A stretch of 64,000 nt of DNA, taken from contig JASFXZ010000016.1 of NCBI GenBank assembly GCA_032209605.1, positions 5,270,001 to 5,334,000 of the forward strand, in the 5' to 3' direction. Positions 5,401 through 61,793 of the stretch are shown here, piece by piece. The position numbers and the translations under genes were made by a program. Below the pieces are notes generated by a model. The model saw only the letters and a program-made list of their open reading frames with translations. It did no database searches and was not told the DNA's origin. The stretch's first letter is position 1, and each line of letters opens with the position of its first letter. This DNA is from Mactromeris polynyma (lineage: Eukaryota > Mollusca > Bivalvia > Venerida > Mactridae).

Positions 5401-8400
5401 GATTGAGTGTAAACTGGTGTTTTTACCTCCTTACAGAAGCAGAATAAGTGGAGTTATACATTTACATTTCTTTTTGTACTGACTGTATTTTTATGGACTC
5501 AATACTTTGAGAGACAAAAATGTTGGGCTAGCGTGACAAACAGGCAGCAGACAAGGATAATACTTAAGCACAACAAATGAACATATATTAAAATAACCAT
5601 TGTACAAAATGTCAGCCGACATAACCATCTCTAGAGCAGACATATCAAAGTACCTAAAACTCACATACAGACTCGAAAGAGGAGACAGAGTACTCACTTT
5701 GTTTTAATCAGCAATGCAGTTGGAATGTCAACTTTTCCCTCACATAGTTTGTACAGTCTCTTCAGATGCTTAAAATACCAACGGAAACACCAATATAAAT
5801 ATATTCTTTAATTTTCCAAATCACAAGCATGGACAGTAAGTAAATTATGAACAACTTTCGTATAAAAATTGGTTCAGATTTAAATGATAACATAACAAGG
5901 ATATCGGTGGAACCGATGGATGCTCCCCGAAGTATGGTTATAACTTCGAACAAGACTCTAATTGGAAAATCTCACTTTGTTGAGGGTTACAATCTGAATG
6001 TTATATGCAGCACTGGAAATGTCCTGGATCTCCCAAGAAAATAGGTATACAAAAATGTACAATGAAATTGAGATAGTGAACAATTTAACTACATGCTGGG
6101 CTAGGATAATCCTGCTAACTGAAAAAAAAATGAAAAAAGGAATCTTGCTACAGATATAAGAAGCCTTTATTCACAATTAATTTAAGTGCCCATGTCAATG
6201 CAATGCATACCTTTACAACAAAGACTGTAAGTTGATACAAATCCATATCAGCTGATGATCAAATAAGTATGGTGTTGACAGATGTACCAGTGATTGAATG
6301 TCCTTTTTGTTCAATACTTTTTATCATAATTTAAAAAAAAAAAAGCTTATTGTTTGAGGTTTGACATGAGGTGATCTTGAAAGGTGCCATAAAAACAAGA
6401 AAATAATTTGAAATCAAATATATACATGTATATATTATAAACACTATGTAGACAAACGTTTACCTACAATAAAAACTTACTTGAAAAATTAAAAGAATGT
6501 AATTTTGATTATCTTGCATAGCTGAAAATATTTAATCTATATGTTGCATAATCAAAGGGCCATAACTTTATGAAAAACAGTCCAATCATAATAGGCGCTT
6601 CTCCTCTTTGTAATTAAGCTTTCCATAAAGTTTTGTTGAATTCCTGTCAAAAGTTTCTGAGAATTAGTCCGAACAAGAATGGTACCAAATATGTACTATG
6701 TTGCATAATCAAAGGGCCATAACTCGGTGAAAAATAGTCTGACCAAAACCATGTGAAAATATGAGCATCTCCTCTTAATAGTATAGCTTCCAATTAAGTT
6801 CTGTTGAATTCCAGTCAAAGGTTTCTGAGAATTAGTCCGAACAATAATGGTACCATATATGTACTTTGTTGCATAATCAAAGGGCCATAACTCGGTGAAA
6901 AATAGTCTGACCAAAACCATGTGAAAATATGAGCATCTCCTTTTAATAGTGAAGCTTCCCATGAAGTTTTGTTGAATTCCAGTCAGCAGTTTCTGAGAAG
7001 TAGTCCGGACAAGAATGGTACCATATATACTATGTTGCATAATCAAAGGGCCATAACTCCATGGAAAAAAATTCCAACCAAAACAAAGTGATAACATGCG
7101 CATTTCCTCTTGGTAGTGAAGCTTCCCATGAAGTTTTGTTGAATTCCAGTCAGTAGTTTCTGAGAAGTAGTCCGGACAAGAATGGTACCATATATACTAT
7201 ATGTGGCATAATCAAAGGGCCATAACTCCGTGAAAAAAAGTCCAACCAAAACCGTGTGATAATATGCACATCTCTTCTTGGTAGTGAAGCTTCCCATGAA
7301 GTTTTGTTGAATTCAAGTCACTGGTTTCTGAGAAGTAGTCCTGACAAGAAAAGTGGGACGGACGGAAGGACGGACGGACGGAAGAAGCGGCGACTATATA
7401 CTCCCCCCCCTTCGGGGACGGGGAGCATAATAAACATAAACTAATACAAATGAACAATTAGAGCTCGTTCTGCGACAAACAAGAGTACAAGAATACAAGA
7501 GTAAAGTGTCTTGCCTACTCTCGGTGAAGAAATCACCTCCAATCATAACGTTTTGCTTTGTCCAAAGGGTGCTCGGACTAGGGAGTTTCCACAGTATTAC
7601 TCCTAATAAAATGCTAGTTGTCTTGAAAATGCATACAAGGAATAATTCAGATGTGATAAAATTTCAAGTATTATTTTCACATATTAGTCTGAAAATGTAG
7701 AAACCGGCTCAACATGTACACTCACATCAGGATTTCTGTCAGCATACCCATGGCGTACCAACTCCTCATGTATGTAGAACTGCTGTGATACTGTATTACT
7801 CAGTGGCAGATGTTTCCGTAGCAACAAAGGATCTAACCACATTATACGTCCTACACGTAGAAGTACATTACCAACCAACTCTTCCTCTTTCAGTTTGTCA
7901 TGTATGAACATACTCGCCTGTTGATATAATACTATGTATTCATATTTTGTAAGATAAAATTATGCATTATAAATAATCTTGGTTTTAATTTTGTTTACAT
8001 AATATTGTTTCAGTATAGGCACATAAATCAACTATTAAATCCTTACAACTAAACTCATTACAGTTTTCATACATATATTTATTTGTTATGACAAAATCAT
8101 TTTCTCTTTAATTCAACTATAAATTATTCCCTCTTACATTAACTAAATGATCTGTATCCGAAGAGGGAATTCACTACAACAAGCTAGATTATAGAGAGAG
8201 AAAAGAGAACATTACTTTATAAAGGCTGTAGTCAGATGATTATTTATTACCATACCTGGGTTGTCCATTCTGTATCTTTGTCTACAGGTCTGATCTTGCA
8301 TACAAACACTTCAATGGCCTGTAAATCAATATGATAGTATACACATACAAAGTACACAAACTAAATAACTTCTGATACAATGAACATCAGACAATGTAGC

Positions 8401-31656: not shown

Positions 31657-34600
31657 ATGGCAGGTGGCGAGACAAAGAATAGTTTATCTAGCAATGTTTT
31701 GCAGATGAAGGTGAAGTATTATGTCTCCCTCTTGATTTACATGTTCTCTCCATGTCTCTTAGCACTTTCCACGTTATCAAAATAGCTATATAGCAGTCGG
31801 TGTCAAATATTTCTGCTGGACAAACTATTTTGTGCTCCTTTATTAAATTGACATTGATATGTTTGAAGGAGAATAGTACATGTTTATTATTAATGTATCC
31901 TATGTTAAATCTTGGCATTACTTTCCAAAGAGACTGGAAACTGTATATATATTTGTGTTTGTAATGGTGTGGGGATCTTGGGTTTGAGCCTCACATCAAT
32001 TTGTCGTTGGGTACACTTCCACCTGATTTTACTTCAGTTGTGACTGAAGTGTTTGACAGCCCATGATGGTTATGCCTCAAATCCAAGAAGGGGAGGAGTG
32101 TGGGGTTAGATGGCTACCTGGTTAACTCAGTCAGTAGTGTGCCTCACATCTGTTTCAGGAGATCTTGGATTGCACCCCTGATCAAGTGCACCGTTTCCCA
32201 TCGATATACTTGTGACAGCAGCAGTTTTTAACAGACGATTGTGGTTGAGCCTCATATGATGGAATGGGGAGGAGTGTGGGGTTCAATAAGCATACTCCCT
32301 GTTAACTTAAGTTAGTTGCATGAGGGCCGTGCTAGGGTTGTGGGGTTGAGGGTTCTAGCCCCACATCATGTGCATTTTCCCCCTTGATTCACTTCAGCTT
32401 GTCCCTTTATATAACTAAAATGTAAACTACTCAGGGACTTAGAGGGCAGCTGATTCTTGACAAATGAGATTTGACAGTCCTGGTGAAATGGCCTCCCTGG
32501 TGAATAGATTGGGGTGTATTTTTGTTTACAAGGAACACCTTACAAGAACATTTCCTGCACAAGGGATTTGACAAAACTCCAGGCTCCAGGGTGGGTACAG
32601 GCCATTTGTCTATTCTCCAGGATTTCCACAAGGCCCTCAATGCGCAAAACAAAACCTTGTGAGTTGCATATATTTTCTGATGGGTAAGTTTAGTCACCTT
32701 AATATGACTGAAAATGTTGGCTGTACTTTACTTTCTTTTCTTGTTTAGGTTGGTGATGTGAGGTTTTCTCACCTGTCTATGTTTATACCCACTTTTGAAT
32801 ACATGTACTACCATCAGTTGATTAATTTTTGTAAACTTTAGAATTGTAATTGCCTAATTGTCATGGTCAAAATATTCTCATAGTCATGTTATAAATTGAT
32901 ATTTCAGTTTATGAAAAGAAGTGCATTTAGAATAGAAAAAGAAAAAAGTGAAGAAGAAAGAAAGCAAGTAATAGATGATGAACACTGGGTACTTGATTTA
33001 CCACCTGTAAACAAGAAAGAGTAAGTCTCGACCCTACTTCAAAGCCATTTGCATTGACTTTTCTCTGTTATATGGCTTAATTAAGTACGTGTACATGCAT
33101 GCATTTTATTTTAACCCTTTTGTGGGTTAAGAAGTCAGAAAAAAACAAAAATAGATGCATGCGCTTATCCAAAAGGGGGGACTGAGATTTTGGTGAAATA
33201 GGGTTGTCCATATCTAATCCTAGATCAAGAGGGGGTCCTAAGTTCAAGGGGCCCCTAGGCGTTAATTGCTGGATCTGTGCATGTAGATGTTCCAAAGTTT
33301 TAGAAGTAATGACTGTAGGTAAGTTAGGGTTGTATGTACCGAAAATAATATTTAAATGAGTTTATTGAAAAAAAAAATTCTGTCATATACCGGTATGTTG
33401 CTAGATAAAATACGGAGCTATTTTCCGCACAGTATAATAACAATGGACAGAATTTAATGGGTTTTTTAATGTTAGAAGTGATGTGTCTCTTGTTTACACT
33501 TTATGGATTTAATAACTATAAGAAAACACATAGAATGGTAATGGCTGCTTTATTCCGGAAGTACTGTACAGAGTGTATATCTGTATATATGTATAGAATC
33601 AACACTAATAGAATGATGGTCTCACATACATGTATATGTAAAGCATACAATGATAGATATATATGATAGGACATAACATCCCTCCTCAACTTAGATAAAA
33701 CTTAAAGTTTACAATTATGCATAGTTTGTCAATTATTCCAGTAGAACAGGTTCCAGTATATCAAATATATTAAATGATAAAATAATATTATAATGAACCA
33801 TATTAATTTGATATAATTCTATAAGAGATTAACAGGTAAGTTTTGCTGATGGAACACACATCATGAACCTAACACTAGTCATGTTCACAAACTTTCTCTC
33901 AGAATTGTCCGAACTCTTGAAACTTGATACCTTGAATGTAAACAGAACACATACCATTTGTTTGTAGATAAAATGGTAACAAGATACAACTAAATATCAT
34001 AGGTAAATCTACTACATGAGCAATATCAAACATTTACACAGTACAAACATGATGTATATCTATATTGTCCAGACTGTTTGTTTACAGAGAACTTTCTTGG
34101 TAATTGTTTATAGAAGTGTAGATTATTCAATCAACTAATGTCTAAGTGTTCATGGAACTATATAAATACAATTATGTTGTACACATTAAGATAACTTGCA
34201 ATGAACTTCTAATGGGATTAGTATGCCCATTTCACTCTGAACTTAACTCTTTATCTTCGCACATAATCCTTTAAGTACACAGGAGGCCGTCTTTCTCGTA
34301 CAGGCCTCTCAGTAGTAATTACATCCGGGTTACTTGAATAATTGTTGGTTTCATCGTCCTCCAAATCAGTCTCTATTTGAACTGCTGTTGATTTGCATTT
34401 CAAATTTTGATTTACTGGCTTCATTACAGAAGAGTTTCTAGTGACACAGTGTCCAGAATCATTTTGTACACTTATCATAGATCCTTTCTTGTTAACGACT
34501 TCATACGACACTGGGTTATATCTGGTAGATATTTTTGTTGGTGTTTCATTCCGTAATAACACTTTGTCACCGATGTTAATTGTGCGTTCCCGGGTATTCA

Positions 34601-37600
34601 ATTTACGATCCTCGTATCTCTTTGACTTGGATTTCGAAATTTCATCATGTCGTCTGGCAATTTCGTCTGCGTGTATATTCTCCCCTATCTTGTTATCAGC
34701 ATTAGGCATACGTGTACCGGGTTCCCTTCCGAACATTAACCTAAACGGCGTATGTCCTGTGGATGTGTGTGGGGTTGCTCTGTATTGACGTAAGAAGCGA
34801 AACATTTCCTGTTTATAGTTTTTCCCCTCCACAAATGCTGACCTGACACTTTTCATCAACGGTTTGTTGAACGATTCAGCCTGAGCATTGGCTCTTGGCC
34901 ATTTTGGTGTGACTTTACGATGAGTAAAACCACAATACTTAGCATAGTCACTAAACGATTTACTGTTAAATGGAGCACCGTTATCAGATTTTACAACCGT
35001 AGGTACACCAAACATAGCAATTACTTTGTCAAAGATTGGTATGACACTATTGGCAGACACACTCCTAATCACTTCAACCACAGGATATCGTGAATATTCG
35101 TCTACAATCACGAAAAGATAATCACCGTTATCTAATGGTCCACAAAAATCAGCACTCAGATTTTTCCATGGTCCTGATGGAAGTTCCGACATCTTCAGAG
35201 GTCCTCGTGATCTGGGTTCCTTGGTATTCGCCTGACACGCAAGACACATTTGTATGGCTGCCTCAACTTCTGCATTCATGTTAGGAAACCATACTTTCGA
35301 CCTTATATAGCTTTTTGTTTTAACCACACCTTGATGTCCTTCATGGCCCAATTTAACTGCCTTCGCTCTTAATACTTTGGGCATTACTAATTTATCATTT
35401 CTTAACAACACAGTTTCACTGTGAACGGTCAGTTCATCCTTGATATTTCGTAAAGCCATCAAGTCTTCCATATCTATGCCAGGATCTACTAATGTCTTCA
35501 GTTCAAACCATTTTCCATTTTTCGTGAATTCAATCGCTTTCTGGATTGTCTTATCGCTGACCGATGCCATTTTAACTTCATCAAGTGTCATTGCATTCGG
35601 TACTGCTTCTGTTGCGATAAATGCCACATATTCATCAGCTAGATTCCTGTTTTCAGCATATTTTAATGGGTGTCTACTCATATAGTCAGACGGATTGTCC
35701 TTCCCTGCCTGGTAAATAATCTTCATTTTAAATGGTTGCAGACGTAAACCCCATCTTTCAATACGTAACGGTGGTTGTTTTTTCGACCAAATCGATGTCA
35801 ACGGTTTATGGTCTGTGATTACTGTGAACATTGGTGCACCCCGTAAATACATCCCATAGTGTTCACACGACCATACTACGGCTAGCGCTTCTCTCTCGGT
35901 TTGACTATACCGTGATTCAGTTGGTGATAATGCACGGCTTGCATATGCAACAACTTGACCTTCCTGTGTAAGTATTCCTGACAATCCTACAGGTGAAGCA
36001 TCTGTGATTATCGTAATATCCTTCGTTGGATCATAGTATCTTATTACCGTATCACTACTTAGTTCCGATTTTAACTTGTCAAATGCATCCTGTTGACATG
36101 TTTCCCATACCCATGCAGTGTCCTTTTTAGTTAATCGGCGTAGTGGTTCTGTGATAGAGGCATAGCTGTTGATGAATCTTGAACAATATGATGTCATACC
36201 TAAAAAACTTCGTAATTCAGATACGTTCATGGGTTGTTCCATAGATCTTATCGCTTCCACTTTCATTGGATCTGCTGATATTCCTGTCCCTTTGAATACA
36301 ACCCCAAAGAATGTTATTTCTGGCCTATTGAACTCGCATTTCTGCTTATTAAGGGTAAGTCCGTTCTTGTGCAAAGCACTGAATACCCTGTCTAATGCCT
36401 TATCATGTTCGGTTTGATTTTTCCCGAACACAATAATGTCATCCGATATATTTTTGGCCCCTTTTATATTTTGAATTAAACAACTTATGGCCTTCTGAAA
36501 AACTTCACTGGCTGAATTTGTTCCAAAATTTAGACGCTTAAATCTATATATTCCCATATGCGTAGAGAATGTTGTAATTGACCTTGATTCTTTTTCTAGC
36601 TCAAGTTGGTTGTATCCACACCGTAAATCCAGCTTGCTAAACACTCGTGCGCCGTTCATGTCGTGTATTAATTCGTCGATGGTAGGCATTGGATGACGTT
36701 CTCTCTCTATTGCCTTGTTTGCCTCGCGCATGTCAATACATAGCCTGACGTCTCCATTTTTCTTAGGTGGCGTCACGATCGGTGATACCCAGGGCGTTGA
36801 TTCATTTCTTACTTCTTCTATTATGTCGTCTTTTACCAATTTGTCTATTTCCTTAGCTACTTTCTCCCTTAGGTGAAATGGTGTCCGTCTATTCCTTTGT
36901 GCAACCGGCATTATATTCTTATTGACATGTAATTTGACCTTTCTGTCCTTTAGTTTGCCTATGCCTGTGTAAATTCCTGGGTACTTGTTTTCTACATCCT
37001 TGCTATCCGTCGTGATACTTTGATTGACGTGAACAAGTTCCAACTCACATGACGTTTCATATCCTACGAGCATACCAAAATTACCTTTGACCAGGTAAAA
37101 TGTTGCGACAGTGAATTTTCCGCATTTATCTATAGTTAGATCACAGGAGCCTAACACCTTGAGATTAGACCCACCTCCGTATGGTAACAATTTGGGCAAT
37201 CTTCTTTTATTCAGGTTTGGTTTCCCCAGAAATTCATAAGACCTTTCGTCTATGATGTTAACTGTTGAGCCAGTGTCAATTGTCATTGTTACTCGTTTTC
37301 CATTTACATTTAAACAAGTTGTTGGCGACTTCTTCGACTTATGGCCGTCAACACGTTTAACTGTAATATTATAGTTGAAACCTTCACTGTCTGAACTGTC
37401 CTGTAAATACTCACAGTTCTGCTGGACTTCATTTACATACTTTCCCCGACAACACTTAGCGAAATGATTCACCTTTTGGCATTTATTACACTTCTTCCCT
37501 TTTGCCGGGCACGGCTTATCTCTGTGTGGATATTCGTAGCCACAATTCCTGCAGACTGCATTAGGCTGTTTATGATCACGTGACGATGCTGCTGAGCTGT

Positions 37601-40600
37601 AGCTGCGTCCTGCTCCACCATTGCCACGCCCTCGATTTTGCTTTTTCCCACGACCCTGGTTATGCCATTTATTCTTTCCACGCTGCGGTGCTTGGACATA
37701 TTGCACTTTTTCAGGCCCCTCTATTGCAGATGCCTGCAATTCTGATTGTTCTAACATACGCCCCAATGTTAAAATATCATTAAGTGACTTATCCGGCTCT
37801 CTTAGTGCACGTCTACGTAACTGATTCGACCTGCAATTTTGAATCACTTGTTGTAGAATTTCTTTGTCTACCTCATTAAACTTACAGTTCTTTGCTAATG
37901 TTCTTAATTCAGTCACAAATTCATCTAATGATTGCGTTTCACTTTGCTTATGTGACCGAAAATTATATATTTCCATTTGCACGTTTTTCTTTGGTGAAAA
38001 ATAGTCTGTAAGCACTTTCTTTGTTGCCTCATATGTTGCTTCAGAATCTCTCTTTTCTGCATCGTATATGTCGTATACCTTTTCTCCAGCATAATGTAAT
38101 AATAAAGCCCGTTGCTGATCACCATCAGCAATTTTCAGTCCAACAAATAGATTTTCTAACCGCCCCATCCATTTTTCCCATTTAGTTCCTGCATTTGACC
38201 TGTCCGTTTCATAGTCAAACGATGGAAAGTGAGGTAAATTATTCATGATGTTTGGTTGTTAAACGTCGTAATCCATCAATTTAACAAATCACAAATAATA
38301 ATCCAACGCGGGTTTGTATTGTTTTAAATATCCTCGTCGCCAGATGATGTGTCTCTTGTTTACACTTTATGGATTTAATAACTATAAGAAAACACATAGA
38401 ATGGTAATGGCTGCTTTATTCCGGAAGTACTGTACAGAGTGTATATCTGTATATATGTATAGAATCAACACTAATAGAATGATGGTCTCACATACATGTA
38501 TATGTAAAGCATACAATGATAGATATATATGATAGGACATAACAAGAAGTACCTTCATGTGTGATTGAACATGGTAATGTTTTGATAAACTAACAATTTC
38601 TGAATTACAGGAGTAAATATGTATCAGAACCAAGTTTTGAGAGATGTATCAACATGATGTATGGCAGAATGTCTTTTCAACAGTATAACCCGGAAGTAGA
38701 GGTGTGAAATTTCTTATCAATTCAGATGAACTTACTTGAAAAATATCACAAAAAAGCTTTGAACATGCTTGACAAACATTGTATGCTGGCAATATAAAAT
38801 CATATTCATATTTCATATTTGCTGCTTGTACAGTAATTCAGGGTTGGCTGGTCACAATTGGTCTTTAAAGAACTTTTACAATATTTATATTTACTGACAT
38901 CTGAACATGGAATGATAGTCATGACTTGGCATTCATCTTTTATGACCAGAGGCATATCAATATACATGTAATATTTAGTGCTTGTTCGATAACCAGTAGG
39001 GTTATGGCCCTTGTTATTGAAAAAAAATTGTCAAAAGTAGCCTTTTTTTTCATTATTTATTTATCCAGGCCGCAGTATTGGGTAAAAATTTCAACATTTT
39101 AAAAGCAGAAAAGTGTGGCTTATTTCAAAGATGATTATACTGATACTGATCAATATATTGCAGACATGTTAGATCTAATGCTATTTTATATTAAAGGTAC
39201 ATAGTCATATACAAATGCATTTTTCTCTCGCCAGAAATTAATGAAGATAAATAATGAGAGACTTAATTTAGAAGAAGCAGAAAGAAAAGAAATTGAGACT
39301 AGTGTGGACGATGAGGAAATGGCTAGAAGGTAATAATGCAGGATTTGTGTTATTTTAGTCATGCATTAGATAGTTTCCACATGTACAATAATTCCCTCCC
39401 TGTTCTTAATCACTAGCAATTTTGATAGGCAAAACTGATAAGCACTTATAGGAGTAATTTCCAAATATGTGATGATTAAGAAAATAGTTTAATATCAAGA
39501 GAATTTGCATGTGACAATCATTTTTCTTCAACTTACTGAGCCAACTGCCCACATGAGCATAATGAATAAGTTATGTCTATATCTGATTATTTTATCTTCG
39601 TTTACATTATATTCCCTACAAACTTTAAGGAAATTTGCCTGTCAATATGGCTGACAATTCAGAACAAGGGAGGTAAATATTTTAAATGTCAGAATTATGT
39701 ATTGTAGTAGTATTCTTGCGGTTGTAGAAATTAGAAGTTAAAATTGATTGTCATTATTCAGTATTACCCATATAACCAGTTGTCCTGGAGATGGCCAATG
39801 TATTTAGGGTAATTTTCAATCAATTTTATTCTGTAAGTGTAAGTGGTTAATTGAAATCAAGTTTTCTGCTAAAAAATCAGGATGATAATGTTTAACTGGT
39901 TTTCCGGGTCTCAATTTTCCTGAAAATCTCATATGTGATTTATCTTATACTCATATGTTTGAGAGCTGATATCAGTGATGGAACACATAGTTAATCAAGA
40001 GAACTAGTATGTGAAGTATAAATATACATGTTACCACTACTCTCAATGATGATATTGTTAGTTGCCTGTTATTTCATGAAATATAATTTTTCTGGAGAAA
40101 ATCTCAATTCGTGAAATTGGGACCTTGTTCTCTTAGCAGCTATGTGATTAAATGTTGCTTCATGATGGGCTGCATTCTGCGTTCACTAAATTCTCAATCC
40201 AACTAACCATTTACATCAGTACAAATAAAAATTTATTAGACAATAATATAATTGATTATTGAGTTTGTTTCTATTATAATAGATGAAATACGTAGTTCAC
40301 AAAAAATGGATTTTTACCATGGCTACAAACAAAATTCAAATTTAGATCCATTGAGTTTCAGACGTTAAATCCTGTCTTCGCTTCATTGCGATTCGAGGAT
40401 GAAGTTAACGGTATATTGTTGTTTGTGCTGCAATATTTGAAAATAAACCCCATAATATTATTTGTACCAATCGGGAGTATTGGGGATTTCCCTGACGCAG
40501 AAATCTCAAGTCCCTTACTCCCTTTTCTTTCTAGGGACTCCCATTTTGAACTTACTGTGCATCCCTGGGACCCCTAAAATAAACTAAAGTCAAGTATAAA

Positions 40601-55900: not shown

Positions 55901-57834
55901 ATCTAAAGAAACTTATCATTAAGATCCTACCTTATTCACCTTTTACTAGATTGTAGCAAAAACACTGACTACATTATCTCTAGGCTTTATTTGAAAAGGG
56001 TTTTAAATGTTATGCTATAAATATTTTTTCATGATTTCAGGTAAGTTCCTTGACGGACCAGATCACATGCAACTCCGAGCCAATGGTCTGTGAATTTGTG
56101 TCGGAACAAAGAGATGATGATTATGTTTATGACATTTATTACACAAACAGTCGAGAATTTGACTTCCGTTTGTTTGAACGAGATCTGACTTTCGAGGCCT
56201 TCGATAGTGATTTAATGATTGCTCGTGCTGGTAATAATGACGATGATGAATTTGTTTACGCAGATGATAATGATGATGAAAATGCTGAAAGTAATTGGAG
56301 AAATGATTATCCTGATGAAGATCCAAGATACTATGAAACAGACCGATCCAGATACAACTATGAAACTGGTTTGTTCCCTCTAACTATTTCAGATTGAATA
56401 CATGAATTTTATAGAATTGTCATCAAAAAAGTTGTTTTACCCAGCAAACTTGATATCATGTATATCCTGTTGCTTCATTATATAGTGCAGGTGTGTGGTC
56501 ATTTTGAGTCTGCTGTCATGTGAAGGCTAGATGATCGAGTGGCTTGATCATGTACATAATCCCTAAATTGTATCATAAATTTTGTTAGTAAAAATAATGT
56601 TTTCTTTCGTAGTTGCAGCAGCCATCACTTCAAGGCGTTTGTGACTTCATATGGTCTGGATTGGCTATTGTGTTATTAAAGGTGTGTGACATCATAAAAT
56701 GTTTAAAAGTCTTATTTATGATATCAAACAAGTCAATAGGCCGCTATTGTATACTTTACCTCAATGTATTTCAGACATGACCGAGTATGAAGCATTTGAA
56801 ACAGAGACTGGTAATCAGCTGGCTGATTGGATGTCATGGAGATGTAATATTGGTGAGTTGTCATCTAAATCATTTTATTGTATATACATATGAGCGCCAT
56901 GTAAAATTTCCAACCTCTTATTTAAATGACGTCATTTCCATAAAACGTCATATGTGACGTCATCATGTACTGACAGTATAAAGCAATATGAAAACGAAGT
57001 GACCATATGAGTAAATATGGTTTCATGCTTGCAAATAGTGACATATGTTGCGTTTTCTTGAAATGTCACTTACAAACGAGGTTGTAAATAATCCAAAGTT
57101 TAATGTACTCTTGTCTTTGTTTAATGAATAGTTTAAAATTGTGTTTCATTTCTAATAACACATTTTTATTCCTGTAAACTGCACAGACAACCGTCTTCTC
57201 ATTGATTGCTGTGCAGGTATTGCTTTGATGTAGATTTCTTGTCAGATTTTATCATCGAGTCCATAGGTTCCATATAAGGTAATACAGCATACTTGTGAAT
57301 GTATGTAAATTCATGATTCATACAAAATACATGTTGAGATATTTTATAATACTGGGACCTAGCATGATACAATGTGGCTGAGAAGTTGAATCTTAAGGTT
57401 GTCATGACAACAACTTGATCCATGACCTGTGTGATTAGCCATCAAATACATTATGCTTTGTCCTGTTACTATAAGGACTGTCCTGGACAGGTCAAACCTT
57501 GGTGCTCATCTGGTGATTCTGAGTTCGAACCCAGATGTGGGCATGTTCTCTATGCAAGGAAATGGTCACATGATTATAGCAGAATAGGCTGGTACTGGTT
57601 TGGTTACAAGGCTGTTGGATAAGCTGCCTAGTTGCCATGTATATCTGAAACACTTTGCTTAATCCTGATCAATATTTAACTTTCTCAGATGCTGGTGAGA
57701 TATCAAGTGACGATGATGAAGTTGTCGATCACTATGGAGACAGAGGCTCATCATTTGATGCTTACTATAGACGTGTGAAGAGGGAAACTGAAGAAAATGA
57801 TGGCGAGGACTCTGGGAAACTTGATATCTTGTAG
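52930..57834 (+). CDS. SLC7A6OS: SLC7A6OS/Iwr1 homologue, six exons, 486 aa
   Basis: Homologue of yeast Iwr1, which guides assembled RNA polymerase II into the nucleus. Exons 52930-53091, 54229-54354, 55074-55694, 56041-56368, 56775-56852 and 57689-57834 join to 486 codons plus TAG. Exon 1 has the basic amino-terminal motif VVRVKRRRNEDPLEVLLLAAKR, shortened here as VVRVKRRRNEDP then LLLAAKR, which serves as a nuclear import signal in Iwr1. Exon 4 holds the acidic Iwr1 core: DDDYVYDIYYT and NWRNDYPDEDP. Exon 6 continues SSDDDEVVDHYGD. The protein is longer than the human one (309 aa as I recall), mainly because exon 3 encodes a 207-residue low-complexity insert with one CPNCG knuckle. The ATG is chosen because the basic motif begins there. 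Exon 4 starts with gtaagt, a donor-like sequence after the acceptor. Confidence 0.93.
53248..53798. mobile_element. MITE with ctcggccc-rich arms, copy 2
   Basis: Left end taaagggtcaactcggccc, right end gggccgagttgaccctgaat. Flanked by a perfect 8-bp duplication, caagatgg (53240-53247 and 53799-53806). The arms hold fewer ctcggccc modules than copy 1. Shared interior: 'gttgttcacacattc', 'cggcata', 'tatatatcgc'. It lies in intron 1 of the SLC7A6OS-like gene. Confidence 0.9.
54355..55073. other. Intron 2 of the SLC7A6OS-like gene with repeat fragments
   Basis: It contains a solo 'caggcatgaga' end of the MITE family at 15799 (near 54597) and a fragment 'tcaagggactcccatttt' to 'tgctgtgcatccctgg' (54836-54912) that is also found at 40490-40570 and, more decayed, near 22190-22380. 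No gene seen. Confidence 0.55.
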
Positions 57835-60883: not shown

Positions 60884-61793
60884 TCAGTGCATATCCATGG
60901 GAACATCGTCAAGATAGGTCCACACCGTCTGCACATTGCTTATCAACTCTGCTCCAAACTTGTCCGGAATTACTGTGTCAACAACCTTCTTATTAGGCTT
61001 GTCTTGACCACCGCCAAAGCTTCTATAGTGATGTAAAAATGAAATATTAATTGGTACGGATTGAACATGAAGCCACTTCACTTCATGAATCATAATCTGA
61101 GAAACTGTTGCAGTTCGAGCTATGTACTTTGATCTCATTCTAGAAACATGAAACAGTCTTTCATGCTCAAGTTTCTGTAAGGTAACAAGCTTGTACTTGT
61201 CCACTAATGTTTTGTTCATTGAAGCAGTAACTCCACCTACCCATTCTTTTCTGAAGAAAGTGTTTCTGAAGAGATAGGCTTCAGCATTGCCATCTAAACT
61301 CTCCAACATGTCCGACCAGTTGTTCGTCTGTTCTGAATGCGGAATAATGAATTCATCCAAATCTAGGTTCACTATAAACTCAGATTTATTTTTATTTCGA
61401 TATAAACAATCATTTAAAGCAGCGACTTGTCCGAAATAATGAATGTCAGTGCCCATTGGAAGCTGCCAGTTCACGACTTCCGTTATGCCTCGTTTTGAAT
61501 AAAATTTCAAAACTTTTGCAACGTTGTCAGCAATGGAATTGTTGTACACGATTATCTTTTCAGCCCCTAGCATTCTATTTAACTCTATCCATTCTACAAT
61601 TTCATACGCGCGAGCATACATTAAATTTAATGGCGACAGACAAATTGTGAATTTACGAACATCCTCTTTCGCTATACTGTTCCTTTCAACAGTCATCAAA
61701 TTTGTTGGCGTGTCACAACTAGTTGTTACCATGGATACGTACAATGGTACTTGTTCTGATGACAACCGACAATTGTACAGACGTACAGTATAA
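60884..61793 (-). CDS. Glycosyltransferase family 92 protein, terminal exon (302 codons)
   Basis: GT92 (formerly DUF23) enzymes are Golgi type II membrane proteins; nematode GALT-1 adds galactose to core fucose. The exon opens at an acceptor (ttttcag, 61794-61800 side) and runs to TGA at 60884-60886. Family motifs in order: EIVEWIELNRMLGAEKIIVYNNS, split here as WIELNRMLGAEK and IIVYNNS; HYFGQVAALNDCLYRNK; and the metal-binding DLDEFIIP, with YLFRNTFFRKEW after it. The frame enters the exon in phase 2, so at least one upstream exon, carrying the cytosolic tail and membrane anchor, is missing; I could not identify it between 61794 and 64000. The catalytic domain appears complete. Sugar and acceptor are not predictable from sequence. 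Confidence 0.85.

Follow-up and report, generated by a model that had tools for sequence, protein, structure and literature searches.

A complete Ty3/Gypsy retrotransposon of probable Mag affinity and its near-identical copies in the genome of the clam Mactromeris polynyma

The Steamer family of long terminal repeat (LTR) retrotransposons, within which mytilid and oyster groups are present, is recognised only by the branching of its members with Steamer of Mya arenaria in trees based upon the reverse transcriptase (RT) and RNase H region, and the minimum identity between Steamer elements in this region is 55% (PMC8905726). Its members are 4,543–4,968 bp in length (4,968 for Steamer), and their LTRs, of 153–219 bp, start with TGTAACA and end in either TTAAACA or ATAAACA, with a tRNA-Leu primer-binding site (PBS), TGGTGTCAGAAG, located directly past the 5' LTR (PMC8905726). 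The same LTR ends and PBS are shared by two branches neighbouring Steamer, designated C9 and C10 in that study. A clade consisting of Steamer, C9 and C10 has a support of only 52–54, and fish elements that are phylogenetically close to Steamer have also been described (PMC8905726). The Steamer-like elements of Dreissena polymorpha were assigned by their authors to the Mag C clade, as sister to Steamer, and at least three horizontal transfers were inferred for them (PMC9210306). In this work we describe a related element from another clam, Mactromeris polynyma, that is present within a stretch of 64,000 nucleotides (contig JASFXZ010000016.1, positions 5,270,001 to 5,334,000), which will be referred to as the window. 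Our interpretation, to which we assign a probability of about 0.87, is that it represents a complete Ty3/Gypsy LTR retrotransposon of the Mag lineage, probably of the C-clade that also contains Steamer and SURL, and that 19 copies, this one among them, were generated recently in a burst whose source was essentially a single master sequence.

Structure of the element and its copies in the genome

The element is 5,066 bp long (33479 to 38544) and it is oriented on the minus strand, its 5' LTR being the right-hand repeat. A first-pass annotation of the window, made from the sequence alone, had described an intact retrotransposon with identical LTRs, a perfect target duplication, a PBS and a polypurine tract in place, and a Gag-Pol frame of 1331 codons without any lesion. 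All of these features were recovered in our analysis: the two LTRs are alike at 200/200 bases, the sequence agaag is perfectly duplicated on the two sides, and the frame, which is the only long one in this region, contains no internal stop codon. The polypurine tract, GAGGAGGGA, is located upstream of the 3' LTR, and the description of the PBS could be refined in that it starts two nucleotides (TC) downstream of the 5' LTR and has the sequence TGGCGACGAGGAT, which we take to correspond to the 3' end of tRNA-Ser(GCU). Two identical 200-nt repeats cannot be ascribed to chance, and 15 further LTR-complete loci in this genome have the same structure. The features of the element, in window coordinates, are as follows.

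33474..33478, no strand: agaag, the target-site duplication next to the 3' LTR
33479..33678, minus strand: 3' LTR, 200 bp, sense TGTTATG...ACATCA
33549..33554: AATAAA within the 3' LTR
33679..33687, minus strand: polypurine tract, read in the sense direction, adjoining the 3' LTR
33688..34250, minus strand: non-coding stretch of about 560 bp from the stop codon to the polypurine tract
34251..38246, minus strand: single Gag-Pol frame, 1331 aa and stop codon
34917..35381, minus strand: integrase, with a zinc-binding H2C2 motif (H968, H971, C1001, C1004) and core
35730..36032, minus strand: RNase H domain (Pfam)
36297..36767, minus strand: reverse transcriptase domain RVT_1 with catalytic motif ISDD (Pfam and motif)
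37269..37277, minus strand: aspartic protease active site DTG, residues 324–326; the Pfam protease match is under the cut-off
37449..37553, minus strand: two CCHC-type zinc knuckles of the nucleocapsid, residues 232–246 and 253–266, the first being CX2CX5HX4C
38247..38329, minus strand: 5' untranslated stretch from the PBS to the start codon
38330..38342, minus strand: PBS, read in the sense direction
38345..38544, minus strand: 5' LTR, 200 bp, identical in sequence to the 3' LTR
38545..38549, no strand: agaag, the target-site duplication next to the 5' LTR

To determine the distribution of this element, the 792.8-Mb genome assembly, which consists of 299 contigs (the window being on contig C68), was searched. 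The COX1 protein from contig C73 of this assembly, translated with the invertebrate mitochondrial code, is 100% identical over 98% of the query to that of Spisula sachalinensis (NCBI taxid 81899, Pseudocardium sachalinense, Mactridae), the next named matches being Lutraria, Mactra and Raeta at 81–83%; a single protein of this kind is a good guide to the lineage but not to the specimen. The LTR was found at 36 places, with a lowest identity of 98%, and these places correspond to 19 copies on 18 contigs, the only contig with two being C248, where they are about 250 kb apart; a count of copies had been proposed with the first-pass annotation. Both LTRs are complete in 16 of the 19 copies, whereas the remaining three are truncated (one lacks the 5' LTR, another lacks the 3' part, and in the third the 3' LTR is cut). 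In all 16 LTR-complete copies the two LTRs are identical, with 0 differences over 3,200 bp, and 13 of them are flanked by perfect 5-bp duplications. Twelve different duplications are seen among these 13; two copies share the same five bases, but their flanks differ.

The copies are also nearly identical outside of their LTRs. In comparison to the window element, and over the aligned parts, they differ by 0–2 mismatches in the RT piece (1,410 nt), by 1–4 in the Gag-protease piece (1,200 nt; 17 copies), by 0–2 in the integrase piece (1,386 nt), where three copies also contain small indels, and by 0–1 in the 3' stretch (572 nt; 17 copies, with one copy lacking this stretch). The three coding pieces are free of stops and indels in 11 of the 16 LTR-complete copies, and a stop-to-stop frame of 1335 aa is retained in 12 of the 19, the twelfth being the copy with a cut 3' LTR. 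A search of the genome with the RT protein sequence, in which 90 of 1,445 candidates were scored, gave these 19 copies at 99–100% identity, the next matches being at 77%, 76% and 74%, followed by others from 61% down to 37%.

In the Gag-Pol protein, the Pfam matches for RT, RNase H and integrase exceed the curated cut-offs and those for Gag and the aspartic protease fall short of them. The integrase core is comprised of D1033, D1088 and E1124 with a D-D35-E spacing, the last of these residues being located just beyond the Pfam match. The domain order RT–RNase H–integrase is of the Gypsy type, an arrangement that is common to all Ty3/Gypsy elements and not specific for Mag, and the best relatives with solved structures include the Ty3-G Gag-Pol (7q5b). 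The catalytic motif of the RT is ISDD and not YxDD. Among 121 aligned rows of the nearest matches, however, SDD is present in 114, of which 67 have ISDD, and YLDD is found in one; the presence of ISDD instead of YxDD is normal among these proteins.

Relationship to Steamer and other Mag-like elements

The relationship of the element to other retrotransposons was examined using its RT/RNase H region (residues 420–860) as the query in protein searches. Among the best 120 of 2,907 matches, the top ones were a K02A2.6-like protein of Mya arenaria (P0001, 79% identity), five unnamed proteins of other sources (75–78%) and a second K02A2.6-like protein of Mya arenaria (P0007, 69%). No protein named Steamer was present among these 120 or among the best 120 of 2,746 matches of a second search. 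In an RT tree of 57 rows, the element was part of a clade of seven rows that included P0001 and had a support of 100/100, and P0007 branched next to this clade (96/97). The tree gave no firm branching order within the seven-row clade, which also contains proteins from Mytilus, Pinctada and Saccostrea. With the inclusion of relatives from this genome, the clade expanded to 11 rows (Shimodaira–Hasegawa-like approximate likelihood ratio test, SH-aLRT, 99), in which at least three lineages of M. polynyma were interspersed with unnamed rows and a single Mya protein, indicating that several subfamilies predate the burst. The larger trees did not include the fast-evolving rows P0065, P0068, P0083, P0088, P0115 and P0119, or P0246, for which the match was short. 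The K02A2.6-like annotation has been linked to the C-clade (PMC8905726).

The distribution of the PBS was examined in 12 loci, viz. one copy of the present family and 11 relatives. The serine-type PBS (at most one mismatch) was found near the expected place in nine of these, two of which look like one duplicated locus; the relatives possessing it are L119, L121, L122, L123, L125, L126, L127 and L129, whereas it was not found in L120, L124 and L128. The leucine-type PBS (at most two mismatches) was not found at the expected place in any of the 12 loci. As the 11 relatives are distributed over three RT branches and the serine-type site was found in all three, this site is widespread in this part of the tree. 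The Mag-like elements of the mosquito Culex quinquefasciatus reportedly use tRNA-Leu or tRNA-Ser primers, with tRNA-Arg in one case (PMC3286476); by description these insect elements also resemble the window element in having mostly short LTRs, a length in many cases of about 5 kb, and 5-bp duplications.

The alternative that deserves the most consideration, although we regard it as unlikely, is that the element belongs to the Steamer family proper, i.e., to the branch that includes Mya arenaria Steamer, and that its PBS and LTR ends have changed. Such a membership agrees with its size, with LTRs of 200 bp, with the presence of one Gag-Pol frame and with target duplications of 5 bp; its nearest named relatives among the matches listed are the two Mya arenaria proteins, both of which exceed the minimum identity noted earlier for Steamer elements, and the mytilid and oyster proteins in its clade have counterparts in groups of the Steamer family. 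Against this, its LTR starts with TGTTATG rather than TGTAACA and ends in ACATCA rather than TTAAACA or ATAAACA, its presumed serine-type PBS differs from the leucine-type site of Steamer, and at 5,066 bp it is longer than Steamer, the other members being shorter still, a marginal difference. A weak indication in the same direction is that the fish rows, unlike what the published closeness of fish elements to Steamer would suggest, fall outside the set of 71–75 rows (SH-aLRT 99) that holds the element; the set that the fish rows joined in one tree was not stable in the next, and the published support for Steamer with C9 and C10 is low. In our view the element represents a lineage sister to the Steamer family inside one larger group, and the designation "Steamer-like" is suitable for it in the broad sense that PMC8905726 ascribes to earlier authors. 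The likeness to Steamer that had been proposed in the first-pass annotation is supported for the 200-bp LTRs, the single frame, the layout, the approximate size and the broad lineage. Membership in the Steamer family in the strict sense is not supported: the LTR ends and the PBS are different, and the PBS type is one that other lineages of this genome share.

With the Steamer family the element shares its nature as a bivalve Ty3/Gypsy element of about 5 kb, its single Gag-Pol frame, a low copy number and the presence of some copies with open frames, whereas the LTR termini and the type of primer tRNA differ and the window element is slightly longer (PMC8905726). The Dreissena polymorpha elements resemble it in that several copies, eight of which were reported, have intact frames between their LTRs (PMC9210306). 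MchSLE1 of Mytilus chilensis (4,758 bp, 185-bp LTRs, five copies) similarly has a single frame, of 1,376 aa, but it possesses a tRNA-Asn PBS and a YxDD box (PMC11046912), in contrast to the serine type and ISDD of the window element. The translated MchSLE1/2 primers given in that report produced no full-set match when compared with 210 Gag-Pol matches, the best total for MchSLE1 being 21 of 37 residues. The two Mya arenaria proteins P0001 and P0007, of which P0001 is in the same clade, are from another species and subfamily.

A number of observations weigh against the interpretation favoured here. The probable assignment to Mag and the C-clade rests on the presumed PBS type and on K02A2.6-like neighbours in the tree rather than on a named reference. 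The position of P0007, sister to the clade in the 57-row tree, was farther out in the enlarged tree. In five of the 16 LTR-complete copies the frame is damaged by stop codons, small indels or large deletions. Lastly, 90 of 1,445 candidates were scored in the RT protein search, so that there are at least as many distant relatives as were counted.

Other observations were made in the course of these searches. No relative of the element was found in scans of viral and microbial contigs, and a search of microbial records for the Steamer LTR/PBS junction gave two matches, which were taken as chance. Some Gag-Pol proteins that group with animal retrotransposons are recorded under symbiont metagenome-assembled genomes (P0120 and P0242 from Candidatus Thiodiazotropha endolucinida; P0064 from Sedimenticola), and they likely represent host DNA in these bins. 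On contig C227, two relatives (5327764–5329074 and 5376446–5377756) that are 49 kb apart have the same RT score and contain one TGA each, and this pair may stem from the duplication of a segment instead of separate insertions.

Age and origin of the burst

Of the 4,568 internal sites compared in 14 copies (the 16 LTR-complete ones minus two with large deletions; substitutions only), 25 are variable, and 24 of these variations are private to a single copy. Such a star-like pattern indicates a single source and a short time. For the pooled LTR pairs, the 95% upper bound on the mean age is about 47,000 years at 1e-8 substitutions/site/year and 470,000 years at 1e-9, these rates being assumed rather than measured in this clam. 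The private changes give 38,000–375,000 years, which is an over-estimate because copying errors are included in it. The recent insertion that had been proposed for the window copy is thus borne out, and more strongly than one copy could tell, by the absence of differences in 16 LTR pairs and by the 19 near-identical copies. Identical LTRs, target duplications and near-identical copies elsewhere in the genome characterise a recently active LTR retrotransposon, and all of these are observed here. The element may be active at present, and its LTR may be transcribed.

A further suggestion as to the origin of the burst is that the family is a recent arrival in the clam lineage, acquired horizontally from some unsampled marine animal, and that its spread from one founder followed immediately. 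This suggestion, which we consider rather improbable, is prompted by the presence of 19 copies at 99–100%, the fact that none was found between 77% and 99%, and the star-like differences among the copies.

All of the sequences are derived from a genome assembly, and the identity of the LTRs could in principle be due to conversion among the copies or to faulty assembly rather than to recent insertion, as the first-pass annotation had recognised. We regard this explanation as very improbable: the 19 copies are on 18 contigs with differing flanks, the 13 perfect duplications comprise 12 different sequences, the regions outside of the LTRs are equally young, and nearly all variable sites are private to one copy, which is not expected from homogenisation. 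Somatic amplification in the sequenced animal, comparable to that of Steamer in the transmissible leukaemia of Mya, where cancer cells have 275–460 sites as against 5–11 in healthy animals (PMC10663159), is likewise highly unlikely, as 19 copies are far below these cancer numbers and each copy would need a high allele fraction to enter the assembly.

Other related lineages are also present in this genome in many copies of near-equal score whose open frames are long (7 rows with 1315 aa, 13 with 1333 aa and 11 with 1368 aa, among the 90 of 1,445 candidates scored), so that recent amplification may extend to several of the Gypsy families of this clam.

Integration sites, proposed mechanism and significance

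The three LTR-complete copies that lack a perfect duplication, located on contigs C46, C232 and C248, have the flanks GCTGA/GCTGG, ACAGA/ACAAT and ATTGA/ATTCT (before the 5' LTR/after the 3' LTR). In each of these, three bases of the duplication are retained and are followed by GA, and the polypurine tract likewise ends in GA ahead of the 3' LTR, in these three copies as elsewhere. The probability that all three pairs of bases would be GA by composition is about 2e-4, a value that was computed after the pattern had been seen. A linear cDNA of this element would carry two bases beyond TG...CA at each end, viz. GA at the left and TC at the right, the PBS starting two bases past the LTR at that end. 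In the copies with these scars, the integrase would have trimmed the 3' ends, the unpaired overhang at the left would have been retained, and gap repair would have filled in only three bases. From these three copies, it is possible that the GA scar in 3 of the 16 represents a retained two-base integration overhang. None of the 16 right flanks starts with TC.

Steamer shows a preference for insertion at CATN-5bp-NATG (PMC10663159). At the 13 sites with perfect duplications, CAT was present on one side in one case and ATG on the other side in one case, but both were present in none, and the sample fits either hypothesis, with or without such a preference. The duplications have a GC content of 0.54 compared with 0.35 in the window (binomial P 0.001; 13 sites, from a single post hoc look).

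Given the parts identified, the 5-bp duplications, the near identity of the copies across different sites and the GA scar in 3 of the 16 copies, the following course can be proposed for the element. Its LTR would drive the synthesis of genomic RNA, and the single Gag-Pol protein would be cleaved by its own aspartic protease. Minus-strand DNA would be primed at the PBS by a host tRNA, presumably a serine tRNA, and the polypurine tract would be spared by RNase H as the primer for the plus strand. The integrase would then trim two nucleotides from each end of the cDNA and join the TG...CA ends to target DNA whose two strands would be cut 5 bp apart.

Elsewhere in the window, about 87 copies of a 28-bp unit are present at 1–2414, this array beginning at the first base of the window, and a second array, of 168-bp units, is found at 6588–7350. 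Likely host exons were also noted for a glycosyltransferase of family 92 (60884–61765, minus strand) and for Iwr1 (56035–56394, plus strand).

No prior description of this element was found in the titles and beginnings of abstracts of the open-licence literature on Spisula (Pseudocardium) sachalinensis, on retrotransposons of Spisula, on Steamer in mactrids or on the horizontal transfer of Steamer in clams. The interest of the family is mainly comparative and lies in how large and how fresh the burst is, in the GA scars and in the possibility that it arrived recently. It also provides a warning that a "Steamer-like" size and layout do not amount to Steamer, as the type of primer tRNA and the LTR ends are different. 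Should sequencing reads confirm them, the GA scars would directly record two-base overhangs present when such an element integrates. The family lies outside the clam species in which members of this group are tied to transmissible cancer, and it represents a bivalve retroelement family in an early burst, whose copies, of like age and sufficient in number, are suitable for studying where such elements prefer to insert, how their ends are processed and whether they may have spread horizontally.

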